Under the pieces are notes generated by a model. The model was not told the origin of the DNA. It did no database searches and saw nothing but the letters and a program-made list of their open reading frames with translations. Position numbers and translations under genes: made by a program. A DNA stretch of 64,000 nucleotides from Gonapodya prolifera JEL478 (Eukaryota; Monoblepharomycota; Monoblepharidomycetes; Monoblepharidales; Gonapodyaceae), in contig KQ965769.1 in assembly GCA_001574975.1 (NCBI GenBank), positions 124,001 through 188,000 of the forward strand, read 5' to 3'. Every line of letters begins with the position of its first letter. Within the stretch, counting starts at the first letter, position 1. Below are positions 7,207 to 64,000 of this stretch, piece after piece.

Positions 7207-9034
7207 ATGGCAGTCGCTGTTTCGCACTTGCCTCACAACCCGACCACTCCGCCGTGGATGCTCGCTCCCCCTCTCGACACCATCACCCATCCCATCGTCA
7301 TGGACCCGGACCAAGGGCGCCACGAACCTCAATACGAGACCGCCACCTTTGCCATCAAAAACAGTCTGGGCGCGTTTGAAGGCGTTGACCAGAACGGCAA
7401 CCTCGTGGCACGAGAAGCCGTGTGCGAGATATGCGGCGCGGCATTCGCTCGGTGCGTCCGGATAAACTTATACTGCTTGGCAGATACGCGTACTCACGTG
7501 CGACCTCTCCCCCTCCTTACAGAAAATTCAACCTCCAAGCCCACATGTCGATCCACGCCGCCGAGCGAGAAAAAGTGTCGTGCGAATGGTGCGGTCGCAC
7601 CTTCTACCGTAAAGGGGATCTCAAGAGACACGCCAAATTGCATGAGTTGGGGCATAAGCAGTTTGTGTGCGAGTACTGCGGGAAGGATTTCGCGAGGTGG
7701 GTTTTGGGTGGGGTGGGGGGTGGCGGGCGGGGGTGGCGGGGGACGAGGCCTAAGCGTGCAGCGCTGACCGTGGACGCGAGCGTAGCGACCTTCGGGGCCT
7801 AAATGCGGTAAAACGCTGACCGAGGACTCTGTCGCGGAGCGAAGCCGAGGACTAAGCACGAAGTGCTGACCGAGGCGAATTACGGCCGTGGAGCGGTGTA
7901 CTCTTCGTGGAGCGTATTGCATGATTGACCCGTCTTCTATTGCAAACTTCTTCTCACCGCTTTCCATTCCCTTCCTCCGACCCCTCCAACTCCAGACAAG
8001 ACCGCATGCGCCAACACATCGAGAACGGAAAATGCCCCGGGCTCGGCGGGGGTCCGTTGCGATCAGCTCCGGCTTCCCAAGCCGCCGCTGCTGTACACGT
8101 GCACACCCGAGTACGCAACGGACCACTGCCATCCCCGCCCCCCTCGGTCGTCATCAAGAGTTCGAACTCACCATACGAACCGCGTAGTCGCGAGACCTCG
8201 CCCTACCCTGGGAGTTGCGCGAGTGGGCTTGGGTTAAGGAACGTGTCGATGTCGATGCCTGATTTGCACGGACAGGCCGGTGGCGCCTTTGATTATGGAG
8301 TGGAATCGTCCCGGTCCACGCCTAATGCTCCAACGGATCCCTCAAAGGTGACGACCTCGGTGTCACAATACGACGAAGGGTCAAACGCGGACTCGTTGTC
8401 GACTCTGGCAATGGCGGCGGCTGTCGTGGCGCCGGATTCGGAGGCGTCTGCTGGAGCTGCAGGGACACCGAACCCGTCGGCTTATGTGGACGATCACAGG
8501 CCGAATCCTGCGCACATGAGCCAACAAACTCCGTACCCCACTGGCTCTTACCTTTCACGACCTTCGTTCATGCCACCCAACGCAGCGCTACTGGGACAAG
8601 CTTGGGGACCGTCACCAATGGGGTTAGCACCAGTACCTCCCTTCCCACCGCCACACATGTACGGCCCGCCTCCGCAGGGATGGTCGAACGCACAATTCTC
8701 AATGGCATACAACACTGCACCTGGACCCTACATGCACCCACATATGCAATATGGGCCGCCTCCTCCACACGGTGCCAGCGTGTTCCCAACACACCCTTGC
8801 ACCGGTCCCGTGTACGCCTACCCACCCGGGCTACCACCACCACACAACCCATACATGAACGCCGGTGCTGCGCCGGGACCCATGTACAGCTACGGTGCTG
8901 CATCTCCATCTCTGAGCTATCATAAGTACTCCGTCGACCGCGCACCACCCCCGCCGCGACAGATGATGCAAGGAGAGCACGCCACGGATGATTGGAGGGC
9001 TGGGTCCTCGGTTCCGAACGGGCGGGAGCAGTGA
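7207..9034 (+). CDS. C2H2 zinc-finger transcription factor (three fingers, proline-rich tail)
   Basis: Three exons, 7207-7451, 7523-7696 and 7996-9034, join in phase to give 485 aa. Finger 1 starts CEICGAAF and ends HMSIH, finger 2 starts CEWCGRTF and ends HAKLH, and finger 3 starts CEYCGKDF and ends HIENGKC (C2HC). Each intron falls inside a finger, just after the Phe-Ala-Arg stretch or its equivalent. The last exon is disordered and rich in Pro, Gly, Tyr and His (PPPQGW, MYGPPP, PPPPRQ), typical of an activation or low-complexity region. It is a nuclear DNA-binding regulator by family, with unknown targets. The start at 7207 is the first ATG after a GC-rich leader, though the frame stays open upstream to 6763. 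Intron 2 (299 nt) carries the dispersed repeat described separately. Confidence 0.8.
7697..7995 (+). repeat. Intron-resident modular GC-rich repeat, copy X
   Basis: This 299-nt intron is several times longer than the usual introns here. It contains three tandem imperfect units near 7747-7770, 7796-7825 and 7846-7875, each of the form GG(C/A)CTAA, then a short variable stretch, then GCTGACCG(A/T)GG. The third unit has a perfect small hairpin, AGCAC-GAA-GTGCT. A second module (CGAATTAC then GGAGCGG and TACTCT) follows at 7875-7903. Both modules recur in the introns at 52539-52936 (minus) and 53903-54108 (plus), always on the sense strand of the host gene. Confidence 0.7.
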
Positions 9035-42270: not shown

Positions 42271-44101
42271 ATGCCTCTCACACCTGGGAAGGAGCCATAT
42301 TGGGCTACCCACGACGGTCGCAAGGTCGTCTCCGTCCACGAGCCACCATACCCCGTCGAGGGTCACGGCAACGACACGTTCTCCAACCTGTCCCTCGCCA
42401 CGGCCATTCTCGGTGTCGCCGCCCCGATTCCAGTCCTTCTCGACCTCCCCTTCACGACGCTCCCCACCATCCTGGCAGTGACTGCTGCCCCAACCTTTGT
42501 CGTCTATAACTACGCCAGGGCTTGGATCTACGGCAACTACGTCGCCACCGACGACTCTAAGGCGCCTTTACCCAAGAAACCCATCGAGGAGTACCTCGAA
42601 TTCAAGGACCCGGCCCTCAAACGCAGGTTCGGAGGCAGCAAGATCCCCATGGAGCTCTTCTTCGAAAACTACATGGACGGAAAGATCGACATCAAGGGTG
42701 ACGTTCTGGACGTCCTCGAACACCGACACGACTGGGCCGTGTTCCGTTTCTCCCTGGGTCAGGCAACTTTCCTTGTCTCACAATGGGTTCCCGAGCTTCT
42801 CTGGCACTCCAAGAAGCAGGACGAGACACAAGTGGGAGAGAACTACGACCGTGGAAACGACTTTTACAATGCTGTGAGCTTGAATTTCAGAGTAGTAGTT
42901 CGCTGATCACCTCTCGCTATTGCCTTTATCCTGAACAATGCCCAGTTCCTTGGACCTACCATGACCTACACCAGCGGTGTCGTCGTCGACAAAACCCGAA
43001 AGGAAACTCTCGAAGAACTCCAACGCAACAAGTACGACCTCGTTCTCCGCAAAACCCTCTTCGACCGGCCCGGACTCAAGCACCTCGACATCGGTTGTGG
43101 CTGGGGACCTCTTGTCATTCACGCTGCCAAGCACTTCAAAACTGCCGAATCTGTCGGTGTCACACTTGCCAAGAACCAGGTGTCCTGGGGAAACGACTGG
43201 GCTGCCCGCGAAGGCGTCAGTGATGTGGCTAGGCTCGAGGTTATGGACTACAGAGACATCCCGACAAAGTACCCCGGAAAGAAATGGGACCGTATTACCT
43301 GGTTCGTTTTGATGATCGTTCGACGAGGAGCATGGTTTTGACCTCGTTTCAACCAACAGTTTGGAAATGGCCGAGCACGTCGGCGTTCTTCGATTCCAGA
43401 CCTTCTTGCGCCAAATTTACGACACGCTCGAGGACGACGGTGTTTTCTACATGCAGGTGGCTGGCCTTCGCAGGTGTGTTGTGCCGATCGACTTGCTTGA
43501 TCAAAAGCGAAGAACTTACGATTTCCTGAACGGGGTACAGGACTTGGCAATACGAGGACTTTATTTGGGGGTAAGTTTTGCACAGACTTCGGAGACCCTG
43601 AATCCCGTTTCTGACGCCTTTGCCAACAGCTTGTTCATGGCGAAATACATCTTCCCTGGAGCCGACGCGTCGACACCCCTGAACTGGTACCTCGAGCAGC
43701 TTGAACGCGCCGGATTTGAAGTTCAGAGCACGGAGACTATGGGCACTCACTACTCGGCGACTCTTTGGAGGTGGTGAGTTTCTAGACGCTCGACGTACTC
43801 TTACGGGACGAGCAGCACCCAATGAACGGCACTTTCTTCCCCAGGTACGAGAACTGGCTCTCTAACCGCGGATCCATGGTCAAGGCCTACGGCGAGAAGA
43901 TGGCCCGTTTGTGGGAGATTTTCCTTGCCTGGTAAGTCCGCACCCAACCCGGCACATCCGTAAACCACCGAAACTGATACGTTATCGCAATCTAGGTCCA
44001 CGATCATCGCTCGCCAAGGTTCCGCCACCGTCTACTTCATTGTGGCGCACAAGAACAAGAACGGTTTCGACCGCACACGGTTCATGCCCCCGCGGGCGTG
44101 A
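42271..44101 (+). CDS. Sphingolipid C9-methyltransferase
   Basis: Seven exons: 42271-42873, 42946-43301, 43360-43473, 43541-43570, 43630-43773, 43845-43931 and 43996-44101, 479 aa. It uses S-adenosylmethionine to methylate C9 of the sphingoid base of fungal glucosylceramides at the ER/Golgi. Two membrane segments lie near the N-terminus (LATAILGVAAPIPVLLDL and LPTILAVTAAPTFVVYNY). Motifs: YDRGNDFYNAFLGPTMTYTS, the SAM site HLDIGCGWGPL, CLEMAEHVG, YMQVAGLRRTWQYEDFIWGL and KYIFPGADAS. These match the fungal family and not plain cyclopropane synthases. The 30-nt exon 4 is confirmed by restoring TWQYEDFIWG. The gene is fungal-specific in distribution and supports the organism assignment. Confidence 0.95.
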
Positions 44102-44422
44102 ACGGCTTGAGGGACGGATAGCTCGGCCTTGTGTATTTGGAATAGACTATCGACTATTCGAAATCTTGCTTCCCGAAATTCCGTCCCTTGGAGCGTTGGC
44201 GAAGACACAAAAGTGATCGGGCTTCGCCTTTCAATTCATCCCAGAGTTACCAATCTCTGATATCAGAAATGCCCCTTCCGTTTGCGGAGCACTTCTGGGT
44301 GAGGACACAGGCAGTCGGATGTGATTTGATCGGATATTTGATGAGCGACATGTTCTTCAAACATGGGTAGGGGTCGGGAGACAAGGGATTCCAAGTTCTC
44401 GTAGGGAAGTTAGACCAGGTGA

Positions 44423-47252
44423 ATGATGGAGCAGTCTTTACTGAAACATCTGTGTCCTTCACTGGCATCTTTGAAGGGCAACGCGAGTCTCGGGGAGCTG
44501 CTGGCATACTGGACACAGAAGTGAGTCCACTTTCCAGTTAGACGCTGAACCCCTTCTGCACACGTGTGGAAATATTTAGGATGGAGACGGAGGCGTCGTT
44601 TACGGCGTCCATGACCCGACTCATGTCCAACAACAAAATGCAATCGGAAACCTCGACCTCTCTTCGGTCAGCGCTCGACAAACTAAATGCGTTCTTCGAG
44701 CAAATGGCGCGATCCCACTCGCTGGTTGTGAATCGTATCAAGGACGACTTGGTTTCCCCTTTGACACATTGTCGCGATTCGTTGGTCAAACTTCGGAAAT
44801 CCCTTCCGAAGGAGTTCGACAAGACGTACAAACCACTAGAAAAGGTGAGTCGGAGCAGGTTCGGAGTCGAGGAGCCACCTGTTTGAGGTAATGGCCCCGT
44901 CGTAAGGAAAAGGAGGGCGTTGTAAAAATCCACACCAGATACGAAGCCAAAGCAGCGGAATTCGTGGCTGCAAACGAGATGTTTACCAAGATGCCAAACG
45001 ATAGAGTGAGTGAGTCTGTCTTTTCCGCTATCTGGTTCAGAAAGATCAACAGGTGTCATTGCAACAAATTCCGATATTTATAGAAACTGCAAGAGAAAGT
45101 GGCAATGCTTAGAATCGAGCTGGACCGACTCAAGGAGGACTACAGTGAATCTGTATCACGATGTCATACAGCCTATAACACTTGGGAGACCGCATATGGG
45201 GATATCTGTCAAGTGAGTAGACTTTTATGATATTTCATTTACGATACCTGAGAATCACAGAATGACTTAATATGTCCAATGCTTCTATGTGCAGAAAGTT
45301 GAAGACATGGAGCGGCACCGGATCACATTAATCAGAAAATCTCTCGAGAGGGTGATTGAAGTGGAAGTTCAAATCAATCACGACTTCATTCCCACTGTGA
45401 GTTCGACGAGGTCATTTGTTGTACTCCTGCTCAAGATCTACACATTTGGATTATGCAGATCATTGAGAAAATGCGCCTCGCTCTCGGTAAAATTGACGTT
45501 CAGTCGGACCTGGATGCTTTCGTGAAGGCAGCGAGAACTGGACGGAGAAGATCCGAGCTTCCCACATTTCGAGATTACTTTGATCCATCGCCCGTGTCAC
45601 AAACGGATGAAGGTGACCGTACTGTCTCATTGCCAAGGTCCCTCGACCTCCCCTCCTCTGAGGGTCCACTTCCACCGCTACCATTCGGCACCCTTAGAAC
45701 AGCTCATACACAATCGACTGGTCTTGGCCCACCTCCTATAGAATCCCCTTTAAACTCTTCTGACATGCTTTCACCGCTTGACCTCACCTTGGCGCTGACA
45801 ATAGGACGCACCACAGATCGCAATAGCGGTACAGAGCGCCCGAGTAGCTTGGCAAGCGAAGTGTTCGAAGCTCTTAAGCGGACTGATATTCATCTCGCGA
45901 TGGATATACTTCAACCCTCCGATGTGTTGACAACGAGGTCCGACGCAAGGTCGGGGTCTGCTGTCACTCTGGCATCTGCACCGTCGGTAAACCCTCGAAA
46001 TGGTGGGAAAGTTGGAGGCTCTTGGGTTGTTCCACAGGGGCGGTCAAACTCGGAGTCCGCAGTTGATTCGATGATGGGTGTACCACCGTTGTTTCAAACG
46101 CAAGGCAGCAATACCAGGATGCTCGAGACTCTTACGGAAAACGAAGAAAGGCCATCGAAGTTATTGGAGTCCCCAACCAAAAGGAAATCTGCAGCATCGG
46201 AATCAGAGGCGACGGGACCTCGAGCATCACAATCAAGATCTTCCACTCTCACCTCGGCAAACGGTCCACCTCCAAGTTTTCCTCCACCGTCCCCTACGGT
46301 CTCGTTTGTTACCGCACCATCACCATCAAACGAAACACCAGGATACTCAAACCCCATGCCACCCGCGTCACCAACTCCTCTAGCTTCTGTGTCGGTGCAC
46401 ACGTCCATGAATCAAAGTGAAAGAGCTTCTGGGATAAATGGATGGACGCCGCGAAGCTCTTCCCCCGCGCATTCACTCGCGCGCACTCCTATTGGTCTCA
46501 GCCCCGGTAATGAATCGATAAATGAAGAGCTGTTGTCAGTTCTACAGAAAAAGGCAGCACGAACTGGTAGTGCAATCGAGCGGTTGGAAGCGGAGAGAAA
46601 GATCAAAACAGCAAATACCAGGGATTCAGCCGGCGGCGACGAAAACGGGGGTTCGTCTCCTCACACGTTTGTTCAGCTCCGAAAAACTCGGCCGGCTACC
46701 CAAGAAGGTGCTAGCAGCGTAGATCAAACACAACGACCTATTATCAGTGCGACTGGACCAGGCGTCGTCCAACAGCCAGGAGGTAGACTTTCCACAACGA
46801 AGCCTTTGACTGAACCTCCTTCGGATCTTCCACCGCAGTTGCGTCGGGTTGCATATCCAGCGTCCGCACAAGCAGCGCAAGCGTCTCAAGATATGGGAAG
46901 CGCCGGCAACATTTTAACTTTGCTGATGAGCAGTGACCCGGGAGGATCCTCTTCAGGCCGAGCACGCCAAATGTCGTTGGCGAGCCTATCCGTACCCGCA
47001 GTGGACGATGCAGATTTTGTTTCACCTGCAAGAACGTCCGCCGCTCTTCGGACACTCACGTGGATAGAAGTTGATGGCGGCGTACCAATGCCTGAAACAG
47101 TTCAAGTGGAGTCGGAAGAACCCGAACTTGACACGAAGACTTTGAGAGATGATCGGCGAGTGCCGCCTAGCCCTGATCTGGTTGTCAGTTTTGGGGAGGG
47201 ATTGAATGGTCAATGGCCGAGGCCTGATTCTCTGCCAAGTGACCAAACCTGA
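44423..47252 (+). CDS. F-BAR-like membrane-bending/cytoskeletal protein with a long disordered tail
   Basis: Six exons: 44423-44520, 44580-44844, 44907-45005, 45084-45212, 45295-45396 and 45459-47252, in phase, 828 aa. Residues ~30-270 are almost entirely helical coiled coil (LDKLNAFFEQMARSHSLVVN, KLQEKVAMLRIELDRLKEDY, VEDMERHRITLIRKSLERVI) and end FVKAARTGRRRSELPTFRDY, a sequence typical of the end of an F-BAR domain. The remaining ~550 residues are Ser/Pro-rich with PPxP motifs (PLPPLP, PPPSFPPPSP) that could bind SH3 domains. No RhoGAP or muHD follows in this frame. The frame at 47345-48445 has similar composition and may be a further exon. Likely role: membrane curvature, cytokinesis or endocytosis. 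Confidence 0.65.
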
Positions 47253-47344
47253 GCACGCCTGGCTGAGAATGGACCGTTAGCATTGAGAAAATAGTATCTT
47301 TCGAGCAGCTAGTAATTTATATTATATTTTGTTTTAATGATATT

Positions 47345-48445
47345 ATGCAGTTGCCGGTGTTTGCCTCCCTTAGCAACCAGTTCGCCCACCACACGCTTGG
47401 CCAAGACATGGCCTCGATTTCGTATTCTAACTCTTTCGCATCGTCAGTATCACTGACGGTGGGAATCCCAACGAAAGCGCAAAGCGGAGGACTGGCGTAC
47501 GGTGATGGCAATAGGGGACTTCCATTTTTGAAGGAGAACGGAGCACTCATCGACAGCAAAACGGAATCTCCCGCCATTAGTTCACGGTACATAAAGCGAG
47601 AGCCATACATTGCTGCCGCACCTGGCGGCCAGGACAATGATTATTATCATGAGACGTCGTTCGACTTGTTTGAATCGCAGGGAAGCGCGGAAGCGTCAGA
47701 GGGCGAGCTCATCGTAGGCCTACGCCCCAAAGAAAACTCCAAAAGTGGGATGAGATTGCCGTCCGAAAATGGAATGGTCCGCAAGAATCACAGTGGGAGT
47801 TCAATGAATACAAGTGAACTGGCGCCATCCATCGAGGACTTTTCCAACTCTCTTGCCGAGTCCAAACCAGCACAATTGGGCTCTGTCGTGGAGAATCTTG
47901 CCAGCGAAGTTGATCCACTGTCAGAGGAACCCAATGGTTTCGACAACACGGAATCAGCACCCATGGAATTGAACCCTGTTGTGGACGCCGTCAAATCTCC
48001 TTTACCACCGTTGCCGACTCACTTGAGCTCACTCCGAAGCGCGGTGCAGTTGAAATCTATCGACCCGAACGACGAGTCAGCTCCGTCTGCAGTTACATCA
48101 AAGTCGGAAACTCATAGTAATACGGATGGTATCGGCAGGACTTCTTCGAAAACATTTGATGCCCCTCTGGCGCTGACGCACGAGATTGCTGTCACACATC
48201 CACTAATCAGAAACGCTCACCCAAGGTCTCAGCAGACTGATCGGAGCTCGTCTTCTCGAAGAACCTTGTCACACCAATCCGGCACATTTGAATCATGCAC
48301 TTCGATGGCATCAGCGACTTTCCCAATCCCCGTCAACCCTCGGAACTATTCCTCACCAGGCAACTCTGAAAACATACCTGTAGCTTCAGAAGCACGAACT
48401 GAGACAATACCCCAACGCACCGTAGAAAAATTCTTCATCAGTTAG
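47345..48445 (+). CDS. Ser/Pro-rich open frame, probable extra exon of a neighbouring gene
   Basis: A 366-codon frame begins at an ATATTATGCAG sequence that could be either an ATG (47345) or a splice acceptor. It is disordered, with SPLPPLPTHLSSLRSAVQ recalling the F-BAR tail (GPLPPLPFGTLRTAH). It ends at TAG 48443-48445. Adding one base to the A5 run near 48433 would make it continuous with the next frame, which leads to the LisH segment. It is therefore either the last exon of the F-BAR gene or the N-terminus of the OFD1-like gene. I cannot decide. Confidence 0.4.
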   Translation: MQLPVFASLSNQFAHHTLGQDMASISYSNSFASSVSLTVGIPTKAQSGGLAYGDGNRGLPFLKENGALIDSKTESPAISSRYIKREPYIAAAPGGQDNDYYHETSFDLFESQGSAEASEGELIVGLRPKENSKSGMRLPSENGMVRKNHSGSSMNTSELAPSIEDFSNSLAESKPAQLGSVVENLASEVDPLSEEPNGFDNTESAPMELNPVVDAVKSPLPPLPTHLSSLRSAVQLKSIDPNDESAPSAVTSKSETHSNTDGIGRTSSKTFDAPLALTHEIAVTHPLIRNAHPRSQQTDRSSSSRRTLSHQSGTFESCTSMASATFPIPVNPRNYSSPGNSENIPVASEARTETIPQRTVEKFFIS

Positions 48446-48599
48446 CTCTGCCGGAAGAACCTCAAACATCCCAAAACGTCGCAGCAGAACTTCGCAAGCA
48501 TCTATCCAAGAGCGAAGAAACCAACAGCTCCGTCCCGCTCCGAATGGATCTCATCGTGGGCAATCGTCCACAAATTCCGACAGTCGAAGTTCTCCATCA

Positions 48600-51500
48600 A
48601 TGGTTTCTAGCGCTCGTGCGAAGTCTCAAGCCAGTGATCAACGGAGAACGTCGTCGAAAGCTAGAACATCACCAGACAATCTTGCTCGAGCCATCTCCAC
48701 AATTCGCATGGATGATAATCGCGCTCGCCAGGACATTAAAACAGTTGCGTCCCATGGGAAAGGCCTACCATCGGGTGATGATGCGAGTCATCGTCGAGAC
48801 GCTTGGACAACGCCTCTGCCGATCACGACGGTACCTCCCTCTTCATGCAATCTCCCACAGCCTTTACCTACCAACACTGCATCGCTACAATCAAACCATC
48901 TCCCGACTGGTCACCCAGTTCTGCCCGAACCACGTCTGCTAGACCTGTTGACAACTCAACCTTCTGTAGATCCCGCATCATTTCCTGCCACACTGGCCCG
49001 GTCACTTCTTCGCACACCACTCGCGACGCACCTCCGTGCCCGCCTCCGTGGTCATCTCTACCACCTTATGCGCGCCCATTTCGCCACAATCCAGCGCGAC
49101 GGGCTCTCAACGGAGGATGGTGTCGACCCTGAGGCTCTCCGCGCGGCACTTACATCGCCTGTGGTGGTGTCTGGAGGCGGATTACTAGAGGAACGGTCGG
49201 TGGATGTTCCAGTGGAAGAATGGCTACGGTGGAGGGGGTACGAGGTGGCCGCTGGAGTCATGGTCGGCGAAGCGGGGTGGCCAGATGATCAGGACGATGT
49301 GACAGTTGGAGATGACAACCAAGGGGTCGAGGTATGCGAATTCCCAATCACACCTTCCTGCCTGCAGGTGTGATCTCACATTATGTTCTATCGCAAGCCT
49401 ATTCCCTTTTCGACTGCCAGGAACAATCATCCTTCCAAGGCAGGCAGTATGCCCGTGCATCGTGCTCTTTTGCGGCACTGGGAACCACCGTGCCCTTGCT
49501 GCTTGTTGCGGTTCGGAAGCTCAGGGAACTTGGAGGGATCGAGATGACGGACAGCGGAAACCAAACAGAACCTGGGACAACGTGGGCTTTCGGTGAGTTG
49601 TTTTGTGTCGTGTTTTTTTTCGGGGGGGGAGGGCAACATACAGTCCTTTTTGCTGGTTCTCACCTCGGGGTTTTAGAATCAGACTTAGAGGCGGTCTCCT
49701 GGTCTAAACTTGCCGATCAAAGTTTTGCAGAAAACTACGACCACTCTCAATATGCAAACTCGGAGACACTGGGAGCAAAGTCGTTCCCTCAACTCGAGGG
49801 ATCAATTTCGCCAGAAGCTTTACGGTACATTTCCTCAATTCGAAATCTGTACACTCGCCACTTCCAGCATGCCGTGACTCTATTCCGCAAGCAAGAAACT
49901 CGCAAGATTCTGTCTCAGGCCCGCGCCGACGTTGCCGAAGATCTTGCCCGTGCCGAATCTCGCGCGGATGAAGCTGCAGCGTTGTACGAGTCCAGCTTAC
50001 GGGAGGCACGCGATGCGATGTAAAGCGCAGAAAATGAGAGAAGGCGGCGGTGGGAAGAGAGCGAGGCTGAGAGTACTGAGAGAGAGAGGAGGAGAATTCA
50101 AGAAGTGGAGAAATGGCGAGTGGCCGTCTCCGATCGAGAAATGGTCCTCGGTCAGAAAGAGGTGCACGTGCAAAGACAGGAAAGAGAGTTGAGGGAGAAG
50201 GAAGCGAAGCTCGAGCAGCTGATCGAGATCGAAAAGCAGAAAGCTCGAGCAGTGTGGGAACGTGAGCACGAAGCGCGAAAGAAGGAATTGGAGGCCGGAC
50301 AAGAGAAGGTGGATGGTGCGTGTTGATGTGGAAGTCTCAATTCTGTTTCCTTATAAACTAACGTTTCTGGTTTCGCTTCATCTGCTCGTACTCAGCCGAT
50401 CGCAGTCTCCTAGCACGTCTTACAGTCGAAGTCCAACGCAAAATGCAGACGCATGAATTGAAAATCGGAAAGGTGGAAAGTCTCACCATGGAACTCGAGA
50501 CAGCGCGTGGTCGCATACAAGAACTTGAAGGTCGCTGCAAAAAGCTCCAGCATCAAGTCGAAGGCGAAGGAGAGACTCGAGCGAGGTTGTGGGAAGTAGA
50601 AGTTTTGAAAGGGTGCGTGTCGCGTGAGGGCGTCTTTTTGGAGATCGGACGTCCTCCCGAACCATGCATTGAAACTGCTTCTCTTCAAAAAATTAGGCAG
50701 TTGTCTGCTACTGAAGCGGCACTTTCTGCTCGCAAAACCGAACTCGCCAATCTCTTGCGGTCCATTGCTCATCCCGAGAAGGTACCTGGCGATTCAGAGC
50801 GGGAGCTGGCGAGGTTGCGCAAGGCGGAACACAGGTGAAAGAAGGAATGTGCCGAGATCGTGGGGAGGTTGGAGGGTGAGGTGAGTTGTTCACGTTATGC
50901 CGGAGTAACACCTCGCACTGCAAAACTTGTAACAACGTGGCCACTCACCTTTTCAAGATGAACCGCTCCGACGAGCTCGCCCGCATCAACGACGACCTTG
51001 TTGTGCGGTGCAGGGCGCTTGAGCGGGAACTGGTCGAGATTAAGATGGAAGTTCAAGAAGAGAGAGCGAGGAGGGAGGAGCAAGGTTGGTACACGACGGG
51101 GGCAAGTTCCCTTTTCGATATGTGATCTGATCACGATATCATGTATTTTGGCAGAGGAAACTGGTGGCTTGCGCATGCGGCCCCGCCAAGGATCGCGTCT
51201 CCTCTTGCAATCCCCATGCCCGATCCCATACCACAACGCGTTATTTCTATTCCTTCTTTGCTACCGATACCTCCCGCACGGATCGACAATGTGTCCTTGA
51301 CCCCTCCGGCCGTGTCATCTCCATCTACCGCACCTATCTTCGTACTTCACCCGCGTGCGTCACCGTTCACAGCCCACGTACCCGCACAGAGGCTGCCGGA
51401 TCCGATGACGAAGTGGGAGAATTCAGCACGTAGAGCATTTTCAGAACGTCCATATCCCCTATCCCCCAGAGAATTCGAGCCAGCAGAACGGACCGCAAAT

Positions 51501-52249
51501 TGGTCCGGTCACGCTTACCAGTGAACCTCAAAGGGGCAAGCTCGGGCCCACTTCGTCACCGCCTTCGAATTATATCAGCATATCTGCCGCACTTGCACTT
51601 GATCCACACGTGGGGGCGATCATGGCCTTCGATAAACTGCGAAAGGTCAATGAAACTGTGCTTGTCAAAACGCCAGGGACGACGATTGGTGAAGAACAGA
51701 TGCAAAAAACGAACGCAAAGCGTGGCGCGAGTCTCGAATGATTCTGTCGCTTTCCTTGCCACCAACACCACAGCCCCGGGCACTCCGAATCCGGCAAATT
51801 CTAGTATCGGAGCGCCATTGGTGTCCGACGTAACCAGTGAACCGAAGACGATTGAATATTCGGGGTTTCGGCGTCTCCCGAACGCAAACGAACCACAACG
51901 AATACAAGTCGAGGAACGAAACGTTGAGAGAAAAAGCATCACTGAACATTCGGCATCAGTGGACCGTGGGTCAGGCAACAATTGGGTGTCGAGGAATCCA
52001 ACACCGCAGGTGCAGGTGAAGGTGCATCAGCCACTTCCCGGTCGCAGTCCCGCGGTACTGGGGTCTTCAGCTGCTGCCGCTCCGGTAGGGACGCTCGCTC
52101 CGGCGATCGTGTATAAGGGAGTAGGACCTTTAAGGGGAGCCGTCACGGACAATGAAAACGAACTACGTCTCGAGACGCAGACGCAGGAACAGAAGCGAGA
52201 CACGTCCCAGCAGTCAGTAGCTGCTCCCGATCGCGCGCGTTCCGAGTAG
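48600..52249 (+). pseudogene. LisH/coiled-coil gene resembling centriolar OFD1, with disabling changes
   Basis: The first part (48600-49378) contains TPLATHLRARLRGHLYHLMR, then a LisH-like motif (VEEWLRWRGYEVAAGVMVGE), the same order and spacing as the N-terminus of OFD1/FOP proteins of centrioles and basal bodies. Long charged coiled coils follow at about 49680-51085 (SREMVLGQKEVHVQRQEREL-like; ELKIGKVESLTMELETARGR; RCRALERELVEIKMEVQEER), then a Pro-rich, poorly ordered end. In-frame TAA at 50021-50023 and TGA at 50836-50838 interrupt continuous heptads, and further frame changes are needed after 51140. A functional copy would mark a flagellated fungus. Here it looks decayed, unless the stops are sequence errors. 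Confidence 0.5.
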
Positions 52250-52476
52250 TCAACGGAGACGGATTTCGGGGCGGGAGACACGGCATCCATAAGTAGTCCT
52301 AGTTATTGAAGTTTGAAGGGGTGATGTGGATGGTGTTTGCGCTTTCATTCCTATTCCGCTATGAATGTACAATAGATGTGTTCGTGACTGATATGGGGAC
52401 CGGACCGTGTGGGGGCGGGGGCACGGGGTTTAACCAGCGCGTGAGATGGATCTTCCAGGATTGGGAGGAAGGAATG

Positions 52477-53422
52477 CTACGTCTTCTTGCCGGCGCCGAA
52501 CCAAGACCCCGAAAAGGCCTGTGGGAAGAACTGGTTCGCTAGGGAAATCACTGATCGAGGGACCGGGATCAGGGGGTGGGGTTTAGAAATGTGCATGAGC
52601 ACGTTTGGCAGTGAAAAGAAAGCCACGAGCACATCCCCGATAATTCTCCAGCAAGCCGGTCAAGAATTCTCAACTCTTTAGGCTTACGAAGGTTAACTAG
52701 GCCTCGACCAAGCTCCGTGGGTAATTTTCCTCCAGCGGACTTCCTCCGTCAGCGGCTAGCAGTGCTTAGTACTTGATATTGTCCCGCGAGAGTATTCCGC
52801 TCCGTGGTGTAATTCGCCTTCGGCGGACAGCTCCGGTCAGCACTTCGTCGGGGCTCGTCTGCGCATATCGGCCTCGGACAGCTCGGTCTTCCGTGCTTTG
52901 CACTCGAAATCCCACTCTACCCAAAGCCACACTCACTCAACGCCATGATCGAGAAAATAATTGCGTTCATCCCACCGCCAGCTGTGTCGCAATTCGAGTC
53001 AAGCACGAGTGGCAGTCGTTAGGAACCGGCGGCGAGAGAAAAACGACGTACCAGGCGAAGCGTTCCTCCCCGTGTTGACCTGAGCGACGATCCCGAAGAA
53101 GAGACTGACCCAAGAGGCGACTCGCCATTGCGTGAAGAGTCCGTACATTCCTGCAGGAAGGGAGTGTGTCGTTGAATTCGAGGCTTCTTGTGTCATGCGG
53201 TGACTGAGACCTACCAATCGTCATGGCCAGCAGCCCGATAAGTTCTGCATCGGCCCCGCTCGCGTCGTCTTTGCTTGGTTCAGGCCACCTGGTGGAGACA
53301 TCGCGTGGGGAATAATCAGACTTCGTGTTCCGCCACTCTGCAGCGCCCACACGAGTCCACCATACTCACGTGAACGGCACCGCGTCGTCGGGTCTTCGTG
53401 GGTCTCTTCGCTTGGCTGCCAT
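52477..53422 (-). CDS. Asterix/WDR83OS-like small ER membrane protein
   Basis: Exons about 53422-53370, 53320-53215, 53150-53052, 52981-52937 and 52538-52477. The last three junctions are in phase. The first intron boundary is uncertain. The protein starts MAAKRRDPRRPDD (the DPRRP is typical of Asterix), then AELIGLLAMTIGMYGLFTQW, RVASWVSLFFGIVAQVNTGR and GGGMNAIIFSIMALTNQFFP. This agrees with Asterix in having two or three short membrane segments and a short N-terminal tail. Asterix is part of the PAT complex that shields polar transmembrane helices during insertion at the ER translocon. The last intron (52936-52539, 398 nt) is unusually long and holds the dispersed repeat. Divergent from the calcineurin B locus, 99 bp apart. 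Confidence 0.6.
52539..52936 (-). repeat. Intron-resident modular GC-rich repeat, copy Y
   Basis: Read on the sense (minus) strand, the intron contains GCACGGAAGACCGAGC with GAGGCC, then CGAAGTGCTGACCG, then AGGCGAATTAC and CACGGAGCGGAATACTCT (52850-52791), then ACTAAGCAC and GCTGACGGAGG. The middle part lines up with copy X at 7858-7903 over about 45 bases with one 16-base insertion. The first part matches copy Z at 53941-53965. Confidence 0.7.
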
Positions 53423-53521
53423 CTGCGCGCTCCGGCAATCGAGTGTCAGTTGGTTTGGCGAACTGCCTAATCTTGCTTTGGTTGCACCTCTATTCGGCCG
53501 GGACCCGTTCACCACACGCAA
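53423..53521. promoter_or_regulatory. 99-bp divergent promoter between the Asterix-like and calcineurin B loci
   Basis: Two start codons face away from each other across only 99 bp, so the two genes must share control sequences. No specific motif is claimed. Confidence 0.4.
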
Positions 53522-54344
53522 ATGGGCGGCAGACAGTCGACGCTGCTCCAGAGGAGATCGAGGAAATGCAGAGTGTGGCTATGGCGGAACGTGAGAGTCC
53601 CCTCCCTCGCTGCCGTCGTTGTATCTCCCTTCTGATTTCGGGACGAATTTGCGTCGCAATCATATCAGTGAGCCCTGACGAAATCAGCAGACTGTACGCT
53701 CGATTAACACAACTCGACAAGTCCGACGGGCGCCATATCAGTCGAGGAGTTTTTCCATATCCCTGAGCTCGCAATGAACCCGCTCGCACCCCGAACCGTT
53801 TCAGTTTTCGATGAAGATGACCGTGGAGAGGTCAACTTCCGACAGTTCGTTACAATCTGAGCGCGTTCTCGCCAAAAGCTAAGCGAAACGTGAAGCTGAG
53901 ATGTGAGTAGGAAAGGCGGGCGTTGCGAGGTCTGGCGTGTGAAGCACGGAAGACCGAGCGAGGCCTAAGCGCGAATGAGACCGCGCGGAGCGATTATTGG
54001 ACCGGTGGAGTCTGCTGGAGCCGAATCATCCACGGAACGCGAATGCTGCAGCGAAACTTCTTTTTAATTTCTTCAACCACCAATCTTCATCTTTTCCCAC
54101 CCTCTTAGTCGCATTCAAAGTCTACAACCTCAACTCGGACGGCTTTATCGACCCCTCCGACCTCTTCTCCATCATGCGGATCATGGTGGGCTCCTCGCTG
54201 AGCGACACGCAGCTGCAGCAGATAGTCGACAAGACCATGGTCGAGGTCGATGTTATTGACAAGGACGGCAAGATCAGCTTCGAGGAGTTCAAGAGGAGTA
54301 TGGCGTTGGCGAATGTGGGAAAGAGGTTGCAGGCGGAGTGTTGA
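53522..54344 (+). pseudogene. CNB1: Calcineurin regulatory subunit B, broken copy
   Basis: Normal calcineurin B is a ~170-aa four-EF-hand Ca2+ sensor of the protein phosphatase calcineurin. Here MGGRQSTLL, PEEIEEMQ, SPDEISRLYARLTQLDKSDG, FFHIPELAMNPLAPRTVSVF, DEDDRGEVNFRQFV and LSAFSPKAKRNVKLR lie in successive frames that require single-base changes near 53555, 53745 and 53860. The last exon (54109-54344) is clean: AFKVYNLNSDGFIDPSDLFS, MVGSSLSDTQLQQIVDKTMV, KDGKISFEEF. EF-hand 1 is degenerate (DKSDGRHISR), and EF-hand 4 appears to lack the first Asp ligand (VIDKDGKISFEE). The intron 53903-54108 carries the dispersed repeat. Either a second intact CNB1 exists elsewhere or the indels are sequence errors. 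Confidence 0.7.
53903..54108 (+). repeat. Intron-resident modular GC-rich repeat, copy Z
   Basis: The 206-nt intron contains GAAGCACGGAAGACCGAGCG, then AGGCCTAAGCGCGAA with GAGACCGCGCGGAGCG (53941-53991), then a weaker second module (CGAATCATCCACGGAACGCG near 54022). The orientation matches the direction of transcription, as in copies X and Y. Confidence 0.65.
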
Positions 54345-54633
54345 GGTGATGAGGTGCCGAGCTGGCGGTGCCATCAAGGAATGTGAGTGCTCGTCATGGC
54401 TTGATCCAAAGGGTTGTTCTTCTGAGAGGGCGGGACTTTCATCGGGACGTCGAATCAGTTGTAACTTGTCTCACCGAACGAGCTGGAGGAACATTGGATT
54501 CTTGGACGATTGAAACGACATTGTCATGGGTGTATCAATTATAATGTTACGAACCATAGATAAGCAATAGCAAAAATCAAGAATGAAAGTGAAAAATCCC
54601 GCATGTAGTTCACTGGCAGTCGATCCCGCCATC

Positions 54634-56189
54634 TCACGACCCCAACTCGCATGCATCCCCTCGCACCTGCCGTCTTTGCACTCGTCCCATTCCCACCCGA
54701 ACCCACCGCCACTTCAGGCCACGAAAACCTGCACTTCCCACCAACCGCCCGTCCCGCACACTCCCCTCGTCCACCCAGAACTCGTAGTCCCCCTGCGACC
54801 GGGGCTTCACGACCTGCCACGGCATGAGGGGACGCCCCAGTTCTGGACCACGGGCCATTTGAAGTCGTAGCGAACTGGCCCGGTCCGACCCGCGCGCGCC
54901 TAGCTCTTCAATGACGGCTCGTTTCCCTGCTGCAGCAACTTTGTCCATCAGGGAGCAGTAGTTCGACGCGTTGACCCACTTCCCCGCGTCGTAGGAGTGG
55001 ACAGAAATTACGTCGATCGAAGGGCACGACAAGTATTGATCCCGCACCAAGGTCCCCACGTCAGTCCCGCCGCCCGTAAACACCAGGATCCCGGGGCGTA
55101 CGAGCTGCTTCACGGTCATTGCCCGCGCGCAGACCCAGTTTGGGTCCCCACCGGCGCTGTACCCGAGAGCTTCGTTCTGGATCCCGAATAAGCACGGCCT
55201 CGGGGAGATCCTTCCACGCTTTTCCGAACCGCGGGTTTGCGTGGCTCAGCACGTGTTCGATCCTCTTGTCGAACGCGGTGGCGGCGTCAGGGGTCGCGTA
55301 GCAATCCGACATGTCGTGCGGCACGCCGGACTGCCCCGAGCTTTACGCCAAGCGACTGGGCGCGGTACATGAATTCGTCCACGGTGGTCAGGATCGTATC
55401 GTTGAACACCCCCAGGGTGGACGGCTCAAGATCGGGTGTGTACGTGGCTGAGGTATTTTTGAGCCCGGCGTCGACCTCAGTGATGAAGATGCGCACGACC
55501 GTCACCCCGATGGACCGGTGAGTACGGAGAGTTGGTCCTTGGGGGAGAGAGCGAAGAGGAAGAAGCTGTTGGCCCCGACCCAGATTGTGCCGTTGCCGGT
55601 GAAGGGTTCGGAGGGGGCGGTAGTTGTGGTGCAATCTAGGGTTTCGTGAGTGTTGAGGTTGGAGGGCACGTCACTGATTTACTCCATTGCGGGCCGGGGG
55701 AATACCAAAAGTGCAGAACGCACCTTGCCCTCCAGGTCGACACGTCGTCTTCCCCGTCGCATTATCTGCCCTCGCCACGCAGCAGGTTGCATTCACAGTG
55801 GAGCACACTGTCGATTGGAGGATACACGTTTGCCAGTCCTGTGGGAAGGCATCAACCAAGGGTCCGAATCGCTCTGACTCGACATCATTGAAGACTCACA
55901 GCAATGGTCGGTGCGCAGTCTTGGCTCGTGGTCTGGAAGACGTGCCGATATTATTATTCAACTAAACGAGGCGATCGCTTCAACCAGCAGCGCTCCACTC
56001 TCACCTGCAAGTGTACTTCATCACCGCGACATCAGTGATCGCAACGCAGCACGTCGCATTGCTCCAAGCGCGTAGGTTTTCGGATGCCGGGAGACAGGTT
56101 TGGAAATCGGCGACGGTATAGGTGGCACCTTTCGTGAGCGCGGGGATTGACCGGGCGAGGATGATGAGATGAAGGTGGTGCAAGAGCAT
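54634..56189 (-). pseudogene. Secreted GH5-type mannanase with two N-terminal Cys-rich modules, decayed
   Basis: From ATG 56189 a signal peptide (MLLHHLHLIILARSIPA) leads to a Cys module (FQTCLPASENLRAWSNATCC, then VAITDVAVMKYTC). A second similar module follows at about 55850-55700 (WQTCILQSTVCSTVNATCCV, then TGKTTC). The catalytic part has VRIFITEVDAG, FDKRIEHVLSHANPRFGKAW, FGIQNEALGYSAGG with the acid/base Glu, SIDVISVHSYDAGKW, AVIEELGARGSD with the nucleophile Glu, and MPWQVVKPRSQGDYEFWVDE. These are GH5 (endo-mannanase-like) landmarks. Frame changes are needed at least near 55360 and 55185, and the first module joins the second out of phase. Plant-wall degradation would be its role if intact. 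Confidence 0.6.
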
Positions 56190-56521
56190 CGGATGGACAG
56201 CGCGATGGCATCGGGGTTAGGAGGGGTGAGGTGAGTGTGGGCTCCGGGAGATCTTTTTGGGAAGGGCGGCAAAGAATTTTCAATCAACGTTTGGGATTAC
56301 AAAGGGTGAGAGCGAAGGCAACACACGATTTCATCTTGAGTATTGTTCGTTCTGGCCTGAATCGTCCTTCGCGGATGACAGGACCGGGGCGAGTTAGCGG
56401 AAAGTTCACCACACTCGCCATAGCCCTCAACGCGCGAATCATCGTAGAAAACCACGCCAACACTTCTCCACAAGCACTGCACGCATTGCGACGGCACACG
56501 CTGACCTCGGCTCCACGGGCA

Positions 56522-57278
56522 ATGCAGTCATTACCATTCGCAACAGCTTCCTACACAACTCAAAGCGCAACTCTACCACAGTTTGGCCGTCATATTGTCG
56601 CTAGATTTGATGGGGCTACTGTCGTCGTCTATCAGGGTATGTGTTCACGACGTCTCTCCTCTTTCAATGCACTGAAGGGAACTGAAATGCATAATCGATT
56701 ATGTGGGCGTCGTCTTACTCTCGCCTGTCGACTGGTGGACAGCCTTCAACCCTCTCATCGCATCGTACGCCGTCGAGCAAGGCAAGTTTGCAGGATGCCC
56801 TGACTTCAAACTCGGACGCAAAACGTGGGTCAAGCCCGGATTCCTCTGGATGATGCACCGGAGCGGTTGGGCGACAAAACCGAACCAAGAACGAGTGCTC
56901 GCCATCACCCTCGAACGAACATTTTTCGACGAGATGCTACGACAGGGCGCCGAGTCCCTCACTATACGGGCAGAGGGACAAAAGTTCCCTGTCCAGCTGC
57001 AGTGGGACCCTGATCACAAACCGGACGGATCACGCGAGGTCAGGAGGGCTATTCAGATTGGGCTGGGAGGAGAGCTCGGCGACAAGTACGCGCGTGGGAT
57101 CGGGATCGTGAAGGTGGTGGACGTGACTGAGTTCGTGCGTGCTCAGAGCGAGTACGCCACGACCGGACAGTATGACCGTCTACAAGTTCCTCTTGAGAAT
57201 GTCTATAAAGTGGCCGATGTAAATCTGGCTATGTCGTTGGGAATTGATCGTGTGGGGAAATCGGATCAAGGAAAGTGA
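56522..57278 (+). CDS. DUF4291-family protein
   Basis: Two exons, 56522-56636 and 56743-57278 (GTATGT...GACAG intron), 216 aa, near the family norm of ~200. Characteristic runs: FGRHIVARFDGATVVVYQAF, NPLIASYAVEQGKF, KTWVKPGFLWMMHRSGWATK, QERVLAITLERTFFDEMLRQ, VQLQWDPDHKPDG and RRAIQIGLGGELGDKY. The family is widespread in bacteria and fungi and has no established function. Its conserved FLWMMxRSGW core suggests a soluble fold without membrane segments. The gene is divergent from the decayed GH5 gene. Confidence 0.85.
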
Positions 57279-57645
57279 TGACTCTGGCTGGAGAACATGG
57301 GACAGTCGGCTATTGAACAAGAGCTTCGACATAGCACCCGCCATACGGTCTCGCCTACAACTGCGTGATCTCAGTCATGGAGGTTGATCATGCCTGGAGC
57401 AATTGGATTCTGCATGAGTTCCCCAATTGTAAACGTGACTTTTTACATCTAACAACTACCAATTTTATTGAATTATCGTTATTGTTGATCATCTTAAAAA
57501 ACGTAGTCCTCTATTCGCCACTGATTAAGTCAATTTGTGGCGTTGGGGTGTGGCCTGAATGAGATTGCGTAACCTTAATTTGGGAATCAAATTCACCCCA
57601 TCAATCACCAATCGCCCAGTCAAACCCCAACGATTCCACCCTTCG

Positions 57646-58663
57646 ATGCCAAAAAAGAGCACTCCCCCTGGTGACGATGAGGAGTTCGAAGACACATTCA
57701 TCTCTCCAAACCTGTCGACCCTGATTGGATCGACGTTCCTCACTGCTCACTATAAGCAGACCCGGCATATTGCGATCTCGAGTGAGTTGTGATTCGCCAA
57801 TGCCATCGTTGCACTGCTACCGAGGGCTCATCACAAACCTTGACCACTATTCAGAGTTCTATCAACCGAACCCAAACGACGGGTCTTGGCAGTTCAGCCT
57901 CTCGACCCGTCTCCTCGGGCTTTCACATACGGGTATCTTCCGGTTCAAATTTCTGGGCACCTCTGTCCCCGGGGAATTCCTCTTCAACTGCGAGAGCCAC
58001 CCCATGGTCGCTCACCGCAGGATGGCTCGGGACTCCGACGCGCCTCTTCTGAAGCTCCGAGAGATGTATCCCGACGTGCCGGAATTCAAGGAGGGCACAG
58101 TTCAGGTGGACCCGGACGGAGATTATAATTCGGCGTTCATGGCGATAGCGAGCATAGCGGCGGTTGCGCTGGACAGTATGTTCTTCTATCGTGGACCTAC
58201 CGCAAACGGGGGCGCGATATGGATGCTGGTGATGGAAGAGGTCGCCGTGGGATCACTCGGCGCAGAGTTGCCCCAAGCAATTGCAAACCTCGAACCGAGG
58301 GACCCGACAAAGCCGTCCTACACCAGCGCGGTGGCACGATACGACGAGGGAAGACCACTAGGTGGAGCGGCGAGACTGAATTGGTTTCGAAGAGAGCTCG
58401 TGTCCTTGATCAGCTCACTGGACTTCTTCGATAAAGGGGTGACACACAGGAAACTCGTTGAAGGGTTCGTAGAAAGAAACGGCTACACCATTTCATCGCT
58501 TGAGAGTGATCACAGTAGTCCGGAAGTCTTCGAAAAGGTCGCAGTCGAAGCCGCAGACGGAGTCAATGCAGTCAAGCTCAGCTTTGACGAAATTGGTCGC
58601 TTCAGGTCAATCGAGATGACCCTGAATGCGAATGCATATGCAAATGACGAGTTTGAGGTATAA
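57646..58663 (+). CDS. Uncharacterised protein (324 aa)
   Basis: Two exons, 57646-57781 and 57825-58663, joined in phase by a 43-nt intron (GTGAGT...CCGAG). The start MPKKSTPPGDDEEFEDTFIS is acidic. The body has HYSEFYQPNPNDGSWQFSLS, HTGIFRFKFLGTSVPGEFLF and a moderately hydrophobic patch (AFMAIASIAAVALDSMFFY). The end is acidic. No motif or family recognised. The long second exon, consistent frame and codon use like neighbours support a real gene. It converges on ITPA with only 66 bp between stops. Confidence 0.6.
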
Positions 58664-58729
58664 TGAAAGTCGAGTCCATCGTACAAGATTCCCACTCCAA
58701 TAGAGTGTTCCACCGCAAGTCGAACAATT

Positions 58730-59428
58730 TTAGATTGTTGTTTTCAAGAAGTCCGCCAGCTCCTTAACGGCTTTGTACCGGTGTGACAGTCCATTTTTCA
58801 CGGTTCTATCCATCTCTGCGTACGTGTGTCCATTCGTGTTCCCTTCGCTCGAAAGCGGTTCAAAGATTGGATCCCATCCAAACTTGTTGTCCCCCCGTGC
58901 TGGAACGATTCGTCCTTTGGTCCGTCCGGTAAATGTGCGCACTTCTTTTCCAGGACCCGCACTGTAGGCGAAAATGCAAAGGGCGCTCGCAGATTTGTCT
59001 TCGTAAGCTGCGAGGAGGTTGTTCAGCCCTTGGTGACCGAGCGTTTCCAAGAACCACTGCAGGAAGAATCAGCGCAGTAGATACAAAGCTCGCGATTAGA
59101 TTGAGGGGGGATTCTCAAAGAAATCACAGGTGCATGCCTTGATGTAAGGACCAGGAAGTCCACCAAGCGAATCAAAGCAGAGACAGGTGTCTTCTGTCAC
59201 GACCTCGCCACCCACGAGCTCCGCCGCTCTCTTGCATTTGTCTGCTGCTATGGCCTCGGGAGTTTTCTCCTGAATCTCCACCAAATCGAGTTTTGCAGAA
59301 GAGATTGTGAACGGCAGCGGATTCGCTTCTGACTGTCCGTGGGGAAAGAGCGAAGATATGATCGCGGTGAACTCGCGAAGCTTGTTTGCGTTTCCGGTGA
59401 CGAACGTGATTGTTCTAGAGGAAGACAT
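58730..59428 (-). CDS. HAM1: Inosine triphosphate pyrophosphatase
   Basis: Exons 59428-59138 and 59056-58730 make a 205-aa protein. It hydrolyses ITP, dITP and XTP to monophosphates, cleaning the nucleotide pool in the cytosol. Motifs: [14 protein letters not shown] (SHR-type start TGN..K), [69 protein letters not shown] and PIFEP, with [20 protein letters not shown] at the C-terminus. The intron joins IK to WF using a GC donor (AAG|GCATGC) and a CTGCAG acceptor. No GT donor restores the family sequence. Confidence 0.95.
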
Positions 59429-59556
59429 GTTTGTTACCTATAACATGTGACCACAGCATCCTTCATTTCAATACTTGTGTTTTGAATTATAAATTTTCGA
59501 AACACAGAACTTTTCACTTAGGCTCAGCGTTTGGTTTACTCTTTAGCTCTGGAAAC

Positions 59557-61635: not shown

Positions 61636-61671
61636 TCCACAGGTGACCGAACAGCGTCAGAACAGCATCTA

Positions 61672-62862: not shown

Positions 62863-63025
62863 TGGTTGCCTTCAACGTCGAGATGCTCCAAAGGCTCGCT
62901 TGCATTTGGACCTCCTCACATGATACAACATACAGTCTTTGCGCACGTAGTTTTATGTAGTTTTATTTTATGTGTCGCGATCCAAGCAATATACATTTCA
63001 TCGCTCGGAAAGACTGGTGATGGAA

Positions 63026-64000
63026 TTAGCGCTCGCCTCCCTCCTGTGAGCCGTCAGAAAAAAGTCGTGAGCGGAACTCTCAAAATTTAATGGCAACAAA
63101 GTCAAACGATATCTCACCTCGGGTGCAGCCATCTCTTCTCCACCCATCGCTCCACCTCCACCCGACCTTTCCTTGTTCTTCGATACACCTGAAACAATGT
63201 CGTCTACCCGCAATATGAGGCAAGCGGACTGCAAACATAACTCGTTTGAGCTATCAATTTAGTGAACACCAATGTGAATTCTCTCACCTCAATCGCTGTC
63301 TTGATGGTTTGAGCCTTAACTGCCACGGGCTCCCAGATACCATATGTCTTCATATCCACCACGTTCCCCGTGAGCCCGTCAATACCCCATGTGTGCTGCC
63401 CCGCGGCGTGCTTTTCTCGAAGTCGTCCAAGTGTGCGAAGTGCGTTACCACCGCAGTTCTGGATCAACGTGCGGGGAATAATCTCGAGAGAGGTGGCGAG
63501 CGCCCTGTACGGGTACTGCTCAACCTAAAGGAGGGAAGACGTGATTTTGACGGTTCGTAAGATACAAGATGGTGGTGATGCCACCAACTCACCCCTCCGA
63601 TTGCTTTTGCCTTCTCACCCAACCTTACACTGATCGCCATTTCTGCAGCCCCTCCCCCGGGAGCGAGTGCTGGCTCGAAGATGACGTTTCGCGCAACTGC
63701 CATCGCGTCCTGAAGATTCCGCTCGACTTCGTTGATGATGTCCTTTGAGGCACCACGGAGAACAATCGTGCAAGCTTTGGGGTCTTGGCACTTGGTGAGG
63801 TAGGTGAAGTACCTGAAATGTTTGGACCGTTCGTGGGACAGCACACGCGCTATTACTTGCCCGGGAACTCACTCGTCGCCAACTTTTTGCACTTCAAAGA
63901 GTCCGCACTTGATCCCTACATCAGCCTCTTTGAGGTCCTCCACACGGTTCAAAATAGTCGCACCGACGGCACGAGCAATACGGTTATTATCCGTTTTGCG
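63026..64000 (-). CDS. CCT3: Chaperonin CCT gamma subunit, 3' half (runs off the window)
   Basis: Partial gene on the minus strand. It is a subunit of the cytosolic TRiC/CCT ring that folds actin and tubulin. Exons seen in order: from 64000 (KTDNNRIARAVGATILNRVE, then CGLFEVQKVGDE), about 63812-63590 (YFTYLTKCQDPKACTIVLRG, then APGGGAAEMAISVRLGEKAK), about 63523-63288 (QYPYRALATSLEIIPRTLIQ, NCGG, TWGIDGLTGNVVDMKTYGIW, EPVAVKAQTIKTAIE), 63228-63118 (SACLILRVDDIVSG then a Gly/Glu-rich tail) and 63043-63026 (EGGER and stop). These match CCT3 closely, including the C-terminal RVDDIVSG. It is the source of the fragments in copies A and B. Confidence 0.95.

Follow-up and report, generated by a model that had tools for sequence, protein, structure and literature searches.

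A sense-oriented hairpin repeat in Gonapodya prolifera that seems to move into existing introns instead of making them

An introner, by definition, creates the intron in which it is found, and the sequence-similar stwintrons of the Hypoxylaceae are whole introns, typically at new positions. Mobile DNA in introns is mostly strand-indifferent or biased against the sense orientation. In bacteria, REP/BIME palindromes form clusters of short hairpins that are high-copy, non-autonomous and extragenic. In addition, mini-hairpins with GNA or GNNA loops are familiar from oligonucleotide and aptamer work.

Here we describe an intronic repeat of Gonapodya prolifera JEL478, first met in a 64-kb stretch of its genome (hereafter the window), which shares features with each of these systems and differs from each. 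Like REP/BIME elements, it consists of clusters of short hairpins, has a high copy number and is non-autonomous, whereas REPs are extragenic and bacterial. As with the Hypoxylaceae stwintrons, repeated intron sequences have multiplied in one fungal lineage, but only an internal array is common to the copies, not the whole intron. Introners and fungal introner-like elements (PMC9860276; Collemare et al. 2015, PMC4457414) resemble it in being high-copy, intronic, gene-biased and sense-oriented, in having no obvious inverted-repeat ends and in having multiplied within one lineage; unlike them, the Gonapodya repeat does not reach the splice sites, and its host introns also occur without an array. 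The main introner survey recognises an introner by sequence similarity that extends almost to both splice boundaries (Gozashti et al. 2022, PMC9860276). The small hairpins share loop type, loop length and a C-G closing pair with GNA/GNNA DNA mini-hairpins of the d(GCGAAGC) class (PMC4686876), but they are building blocks of a genomic repeat and are likened to that class by sequence. Searches of an open-licence library, some of them aimed at other topics, listed no description of the repeat.

The reading that we consider probable is that of a hairpin repeat confined to introns, which enters introns that already exist, close to the 5' splice site and in the sense orientation. The repeat appears locked to introns and to the sense strand, yet separable from the intron, which sets it apart both from typical intronic mobile DNA and from introners. 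It would offer a natural system for asking how repeats couple to transcription or splicing without creating introns, and it cautions that shared repeats inside introns are insufficient for calling an introner.

Hairpin modules in three introns of the window

The initial annotation had reported related modules, in the direction of transcription, inside three introns of the window, and this was borne out at the positions below; R1 denotes a covariance model of the core module.

Positions 7697–7995, plus strand: intron of the C2H2 zinc-finger gene, with the hairpin array by reading at ~7745–7925 and a G-rich 5' part
Positions 7744–7773, plus strand: core hairpin module 1, GAGGCCTAAGC..GCTGACCGTGG (R1, 39.6 bits)
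Positions 7793–7825, plus strand: core hairpin module 2, degenerate (R1, 25.8 bits)
Positions 7846–7875, plus strand: core hairpin module 3, then CGAATTAC, GGAGCGG and TACTCT (R1, 43.9 bits)
Positions 52539–52936, minus strand: intron of the Asterix-like gene; its hairpin array has degenerated too far to be matched by R1
Positions 52881–52896, minus strand: head module GCACGGAAGACCGAGC in the Asterix-like intron (C39:176882–176906, 2 mismatches in the head-module search)
Positions 53903–54108, plus strand: intron of the calcineurin-B-like gene, with a short array
Positions 53944–53970, plus strand: head module GCACGGAAGACCGAGC and start of core module GAGGCCTAAGC in the calcineurin-B-like intron (C39:177934–177958, 2 mismatches)

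The exons flanking the zinc-finger intron join in frame (...CGKDFAR/QDRMRQH..., slashes marking junctions), the junction lies by reading within a third zinc-finger-like motif, and the product matches zf-C2H2 in Pfam. Across the Asterix-like intron (52936–52539) the joined exons read ...FSIMAL/T/NQFF..., and the joined product scores 22.3 bits against the Pfam family ASTER, slightly below the cut-off of 22.7. The third intron breaks the calcineurin-B-like frame, which reads best in a second copy of the gene on contig C104. Relative to that copy, several small indels disturb the reading frame of the window copy (53524–53900), which reflects either a decaying copy or a consensus error.

Module sharing among the three introns far exceeds chance. 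The claim that all three contain the same listed modules holds for related modules in general, but each specific word is missing somewhere: GCACGGAAG is present in the second and third introns and absent from the first; GCTGACCG(A/T)GG occurs three times in the first and not at all in the third, and is present in the C104 copy of the third; the second intron has GCTGACCGGAG; and CGAATTAC followed by GGAGCGG and TACTCT is found in the first two only. R1 gave three matches in the first intron (25.8–43.9 bits), a weak one in the third (11.8 bits, E 0.61) and none in the second. The accompanying statement that the window holds no copy outside introns stands for R1, which has no match in the rest of the 64 kb at E up to 1, but single words do occur, with GCTGACCG at 27771 (plus strand) and 44672 (minus strand). 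Searching the whole window against Rfam at gathering scores returned no match, and five array loci searched against Rfam returned one, at E 0.56.

Copy number and hairpin structure of the arrays

The core pattern CTAAGCN{4,25}GCTGACCGNGG matches the 47.6-Mb genome 292 times (163 forward, 129 reverse) and the head module, at up to 3 mismatches, 161 times (80 and 81 by strand); as controls, the reversed core pattern and the reversed head module each gave no genome match. The strict core was found in 4 of 27 head-found arrays and the head in 4 of 27 core-found arrays, and this small overlap, used for a rough capture-recapture estimate, suggests that the genome contains more than a thousand arrays. 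The core pattern has no match in IMG/VR and three in a prokaryote collection, which by estimate is about the chance level.

From 82 loci, 74 non-redundant arrays were obtained after removal of 8 duplicates. These were picked by pattern and not by context, from the first contigs or the best matches (first or best 30 or 15 places). They are not fully independent, since at least one pair (L004, L059) represents second copies, and because the array copies are related, the counts given below are not independent either. Each copy is an array of short hairpin modules in which no coding capacity was seen. Among 59 arrays, 24 contain one core, 22 two, 6 three, 2 four and 5 none; core-to-core spacings range from 32 to 388 nt with clusters near 50 and 90 nt, and the arrays are dispersed in unrelated introns. 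Two opposite-strand arrays lying 1.2 kb apart (L012 and L013, at C1:569523 and C1:570745) share an unusual core variant, CTAAGCGCCGGTACGCGC, and each is sense to its own divergent gene, as far as readable.

The consensus of 42 aligned units of ~90 nt contains, by reading, the core hairpin and the hairpins GCC-GGA-GGC, CCGC-GAA-GCGG and CGC-GGA-GCG; RNAalifold on the same units finds two short stems only, at -3.4 kcal/mol. A published class of DNA mini-hairpins is characterised by a GNA or GNNA loop and two or more G-C pairs (PMC4686876). When small hairpins are counted as stems of 4 bp or longer that enclose loops of 3 or 4, the loops of 171 of 256 would by sequence place them in this class (133 GNA and 38 GNNA), compared with 4.2 and 6.2 per first-order Markov shuffle (~10 in total) and with 3 GNA and 1 GNNA among 79 hairpins in downstream flanks of equal length. 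In 167 of 169 cases a C stands directly before the loop, and most tetraloops are GATA, GCTA or GACA, not GNRA.

One rival reading is a functional intronic RNA structure under selection, for example one that shortens the effective distance between splice site and branch point. The outer core pair covaries genome-wide (A-T 226, G-C 22, G.T 16, A.C 4; Fisher odds ratio 78); a local count of this pair was disregarded, as a G.T pattern had been used to retrieve 15 of the loci. In the other stems, with the ascertained outer pair excluded, wobble pairs exceed A.C by 83 to 49, which hints at RNA rather than DNA, but head stems do not follow this trend, with 6 wobble and 8 A.C pairs. Unpaired core flanks carry 3 C-to-T and 10 G-to-A changes, and the outer-pair, wobble and flank counts, all of them comparisons of sequence, lean towards structure on the sense strand. 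In a 30-sequence core alignment the covariation score lies above that of shuffles (reached by 13 of 500), and changes on both sides are no more frequent than in shuffles (289 of 500 reach the observed value); furthermore, both arms of a palindrome could be altered by template switching itself, which would produce covariation.

A functional RNA would also be in line with the sense-only occurrence of the arrays and with their branch-point-like CTRAY words, of which 127 are sense and 16 antisense. This bias lends some support to the initial annotation's remark on branch-point-like words, as putative branch points. On the other hand, RNA folding of whole arrays stays near shuffled levels (z-scores of -0.8, +0.9, -1.1 and -2.6 for four sense arrays and of -2.6, +1.9, -0.3 and -0.6 for the antisense), DNA folding z-scores are alike on both strands, and nearest-neighbour folding of four whole arrays is unremarkable, so that whole arrays have no consistent folding advantage over shuffles as RNA or DNA. 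The preference for tetraloops other than GNRA, the unrelated host genes, the different module content in copies of one intron and the occasional absence of the array likewise speak against a functional RNA, which we consider an unlikely explanation.

Confinement to introns and sense orientation

That the repeat lies only in introns and only in the sense orientation was claimed initially for the window, and the claim holds in further arrays sampled from the genome by pattern: exonic, intergenic or antisense placement was demonstrated for none of the 74 further arrays. The locus L048 scores 18.4 in sense and 13.0 in antisense, with no donor identified and nothing from Pfam, and its downstream frame is possibly coding. 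A strict GT[AG]AGT lies within 100 nt before the array in 47 of 74 cases on the sense strand and in 3 of 74 on the antisense strand. Self-trained gene finders missed exons and were replaced by a frameshift-tolerant codon model and a splice-bracket score, which combines splice-site quality with codon usage on both sides. This score was higher for the sense strand at 33 of 38 and 25 of 30 loci (overlapping lists) and put antisense first at 9 distinct loci. Five of these have Pfam evidence for sense (L012, L050, L074, L037 and, slightly below cut-off, L010), L034 belongs, as a second core, to the L033 array, for which sense scored higher, and L013 scored sense when met again as L066. For L013, L060 and L070 the sense call comes from reading of donor and frame, Pfam having given nothing useful on L013 and L070.

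Protein evidence is in agreement with these scores. The longest sense ORF has a Pfam match (E up to 0.001) at 10 of 30 loci, 9 of them above cut-off, compared with 3 of 30 for the longest antisense ORF (L007, L019, L033; 2 above cut-off); these antisense ORFs end ~450–730 nt upstream of the array and are taken for presumed neighbouring genes. Ten products, chosen from the 74 arrays for readable exons, were spliced by hand, L062 and L074 among them; several automatic splices were wrong. Of the 10, 8 gave a single Pfam match that spans the junction, and 7 of these matches exceed the curated cut-off. These matches are to a class-III aminotransferase, a cupin-like protein, the GH31 N-terminal domain, TFIIB, an MFS transporter, EMP24 and ribosomal protein S19e, plus a weaker MFS match, and the spliced product of uS14 (an S14-type ribosomal protein) likewise gives a match across the junction. 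In hand-spliced L050 the domain stops before the junction, and L058 yields no domain. Within the family, modules rarely flip, as only 2 of the 353 11-mers present in 5 or more of 59 loci are accompanied there by their reverse complement. Taken over the sampled set, this evidence supports arrays that are confined to introns and sense-oriented. A G. prolifera transcriptome (SRR427152, cited in PMC6142364) exists, and splicing of the array-bearing introns is thus directly testable.

An ordinary transposable element or minisatellite might produce the same picture if it inserted at random and selection alone purged its exonic and antisense copies. The clustering of core spacings would suit such an element, and antisense copies would bring more YAG, which has a density of 32.6 per kb on the antisense and 17.0 per kb on the sense strand of the arrays (~2x), with strong acceptor-like sites differing little (6 sense, 10 antisense). 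This asymmetry in splice signals might explain the loss of antisense copies within introns, but not the absence of intergenic ones: random insertion predicts common intergenic copies in both directions, and none was identified among the 74 arrays. At the one clean insertion described below, read by eye, neither inverted ends nor a target duplication was seen, and we regard random insertion as unlikely. The initial annotation's alternative of a repeat tolerated only in introns comes closer to the data, but tolerance alone leaves the missing intergenic copies unexplained. Since random insertion followed by selection would leave many intergenic copies, we prefer a route of entry that is coupled to transcription or splicing and involves sense-strand hairpins, the moving form being either DNA or RNA.

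Array position, second gene copies and a possible route of spread

Automatic bracketing of 73 arrays gives approximate medians of 330 nt for intron length, 32 nt for the gap from donor to array and 109 nt for that from array to acceptor, the gaps being measured outside the track of shared 11-mers. By these estimates, similarity among arrays ends before the splice boundaries, as is clear in L063/L092, and the stretches in between vary in length. In 19 of the 30 loci found through the head module, this module follows a donor-like hexamer at a distance of 16–41 nt. The donor-to-array stretch is G-rich, with 43% G in 31 introns compared with 31% after 89 other GTGAGT words, which are putative donors at most. 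At L049, L054 and L091 a single N or runs of N, either assembly gaps or withheld letters, stand beside poly-G just after the 5' splice site.

Second copies, either alleles or duplicated genes, were sought by flank search for 37 sampled loci (9, 7, 10 and 11), from query sets that held 16, 16 and 24 loci, the first covered fully and the other two in part. Ten second places for nine loci were compared, and 8 of the 37 sampled loci together with the three window introns make up a comparison set of 11 introns. Partial matches for L053, L058, L060 and L081 stand outside this count, and L045 was dropped as a second copy of L011, being the same gene over a short stretch only. A full second copy was not seen for most of the 37 other sampled loci.

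The intron position is identical in every copy of all 11 introns, and the array is shared by both copies in 8, reduced to a remnant in 1 and absent from the second copy in 2. The eight comprise the zinc-finger, Asterix-like and calcineurin B introns, L004, L007, L052 (whose second copy is partly N), L065 and L089; as arrays occur in both copies of so many introns, the insertion activity may be old. The module content often differs between two array-bearing copies. On C104, the zinc-finger gene has the same intron with a shorter array (C104:51717–51924), the Asterix-like gene has the same intron with an array of different composition, and the calcineurin-B-like intron has ~150 nt more modules at the same place; L065 and L098, by comparison, are collinear with 20 substitutions in 202 sites. 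In the pair L003/L042, the second copy retains only a fragment resembling one module; the 317-residue aminotransferase exon of L003 shares 97% identity with a G. prolifera JEL478 protein, which in turn matches the gene copy at L042 at 98.6% over residues 181–461, in an alignment extending beyond the end of the exon. The distance from the 5' splice site to the same anchor is 168 nt in L063 and 18 nt in the array-free L092, which keeps the same intron and both splice sites. Similarly, the genes related to L062, namely L093 and L094, are both without the array and keep the same intron and both splice sites. The L063/L092 difference, one clean insertion by eye, has no inverted ends, and its ends share at most 2–3 nt; neither a diagnostic target-site duplication nor a source copy was caught for any insertion compared. 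Because gene copies without the repeat still have the intron, the repeat seems, from these alignments, to colonise introns rather than make them.

Ectopic gene conversion, or template switching at short motifs that introns share, could carry arrays from intron to intron and would require no transposition machinery. Such spread would account for the mosaic structure of the arrays and for the gain and loss of modules between copies. In addition, just after the head module, L065 and L098 differ by the inversion of a loop between GTCC and GGAC arms (TCGCTGCGCTC versus GAGCGCAGCGA); both loop orientations occur among the arrays, 4 and 2 times, and an inverted loop between complementary arms is what template switching would leave. 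The empty intron L092, however, has just 18 nt from 5' splice site to anchor and no array seed from which such an exchange could start, and we consider this route unlikely. Least probable by far, and disfavoured, is the intron-generating reading offered initially, in which the array is an introner or introner-like element that carries splice sites and creates the intron on insertion: although the arrays are sense-only and in introns, fungal introners are strongly gene-biased and without TSDs and TIRs (PMC9860276) and G. prolifera had the highest intron density of 263 fungi surveyed (PMC8476143), the array ends miss the splice sites by stretches of varying length, and the intron position is the same in 11 of 11 cases, including the three array-free copies L092, L093 and L094.

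Within the preferred reading of a repeat that enters existing introns, sequence comparison supports the confinement and the orientation of the sampled arrays, the presence or absence of an array in a standing intron, the gain, loss and rearrangement of modules, and the covariation of the outer core pair; how the repeat spreads, we infer. Arrays would arrive as single-stranded nucleic acid of the sense strand and settle in introns already present, between the 5' splice site and the branch point; the orientation would then follow transcription. The moving form could be non-template DNA that carries hairpins and is exposed as the gene is transcribed, or a copy made from excised intron RNA. Template switching guided by the hairpins would then expand, contract and flip modules, and the pattern would be reinforced by selection, both against the cryptic 3' splice sites that antisense copies bring and against copies in exons. 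The specific proposal that the element moves as hairpin-bearing sense-strand single-stranded DNA and is captured at transcribed introns is tentative and, taken alone, rather unlikely. By this route transcription would leave the non-template strand exposed past the G-rich region of the 5' splice site; GNA mini-hairpins would form and the element would be captured there, so that its orientation would follow the host gene and only transcribed introns would be colonised.

Much of window positions 44001–64000, as well as 7697–7995, has a second copy at ~80–93% identity (weaker in places). These second-copy stretches lie on C104 and C184 and are partly inverted, with 7697–7995 corresponding to the C104 interval given above, which indicates that parts of the assembly represent either haplotypes that have diverged or blocks that were duplicated. 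Finally, positions 61176–63247 form a dispersed multi-copy stretch with 69–92% identity to places on C104, C184, C39, C44 and C32, on both strands.
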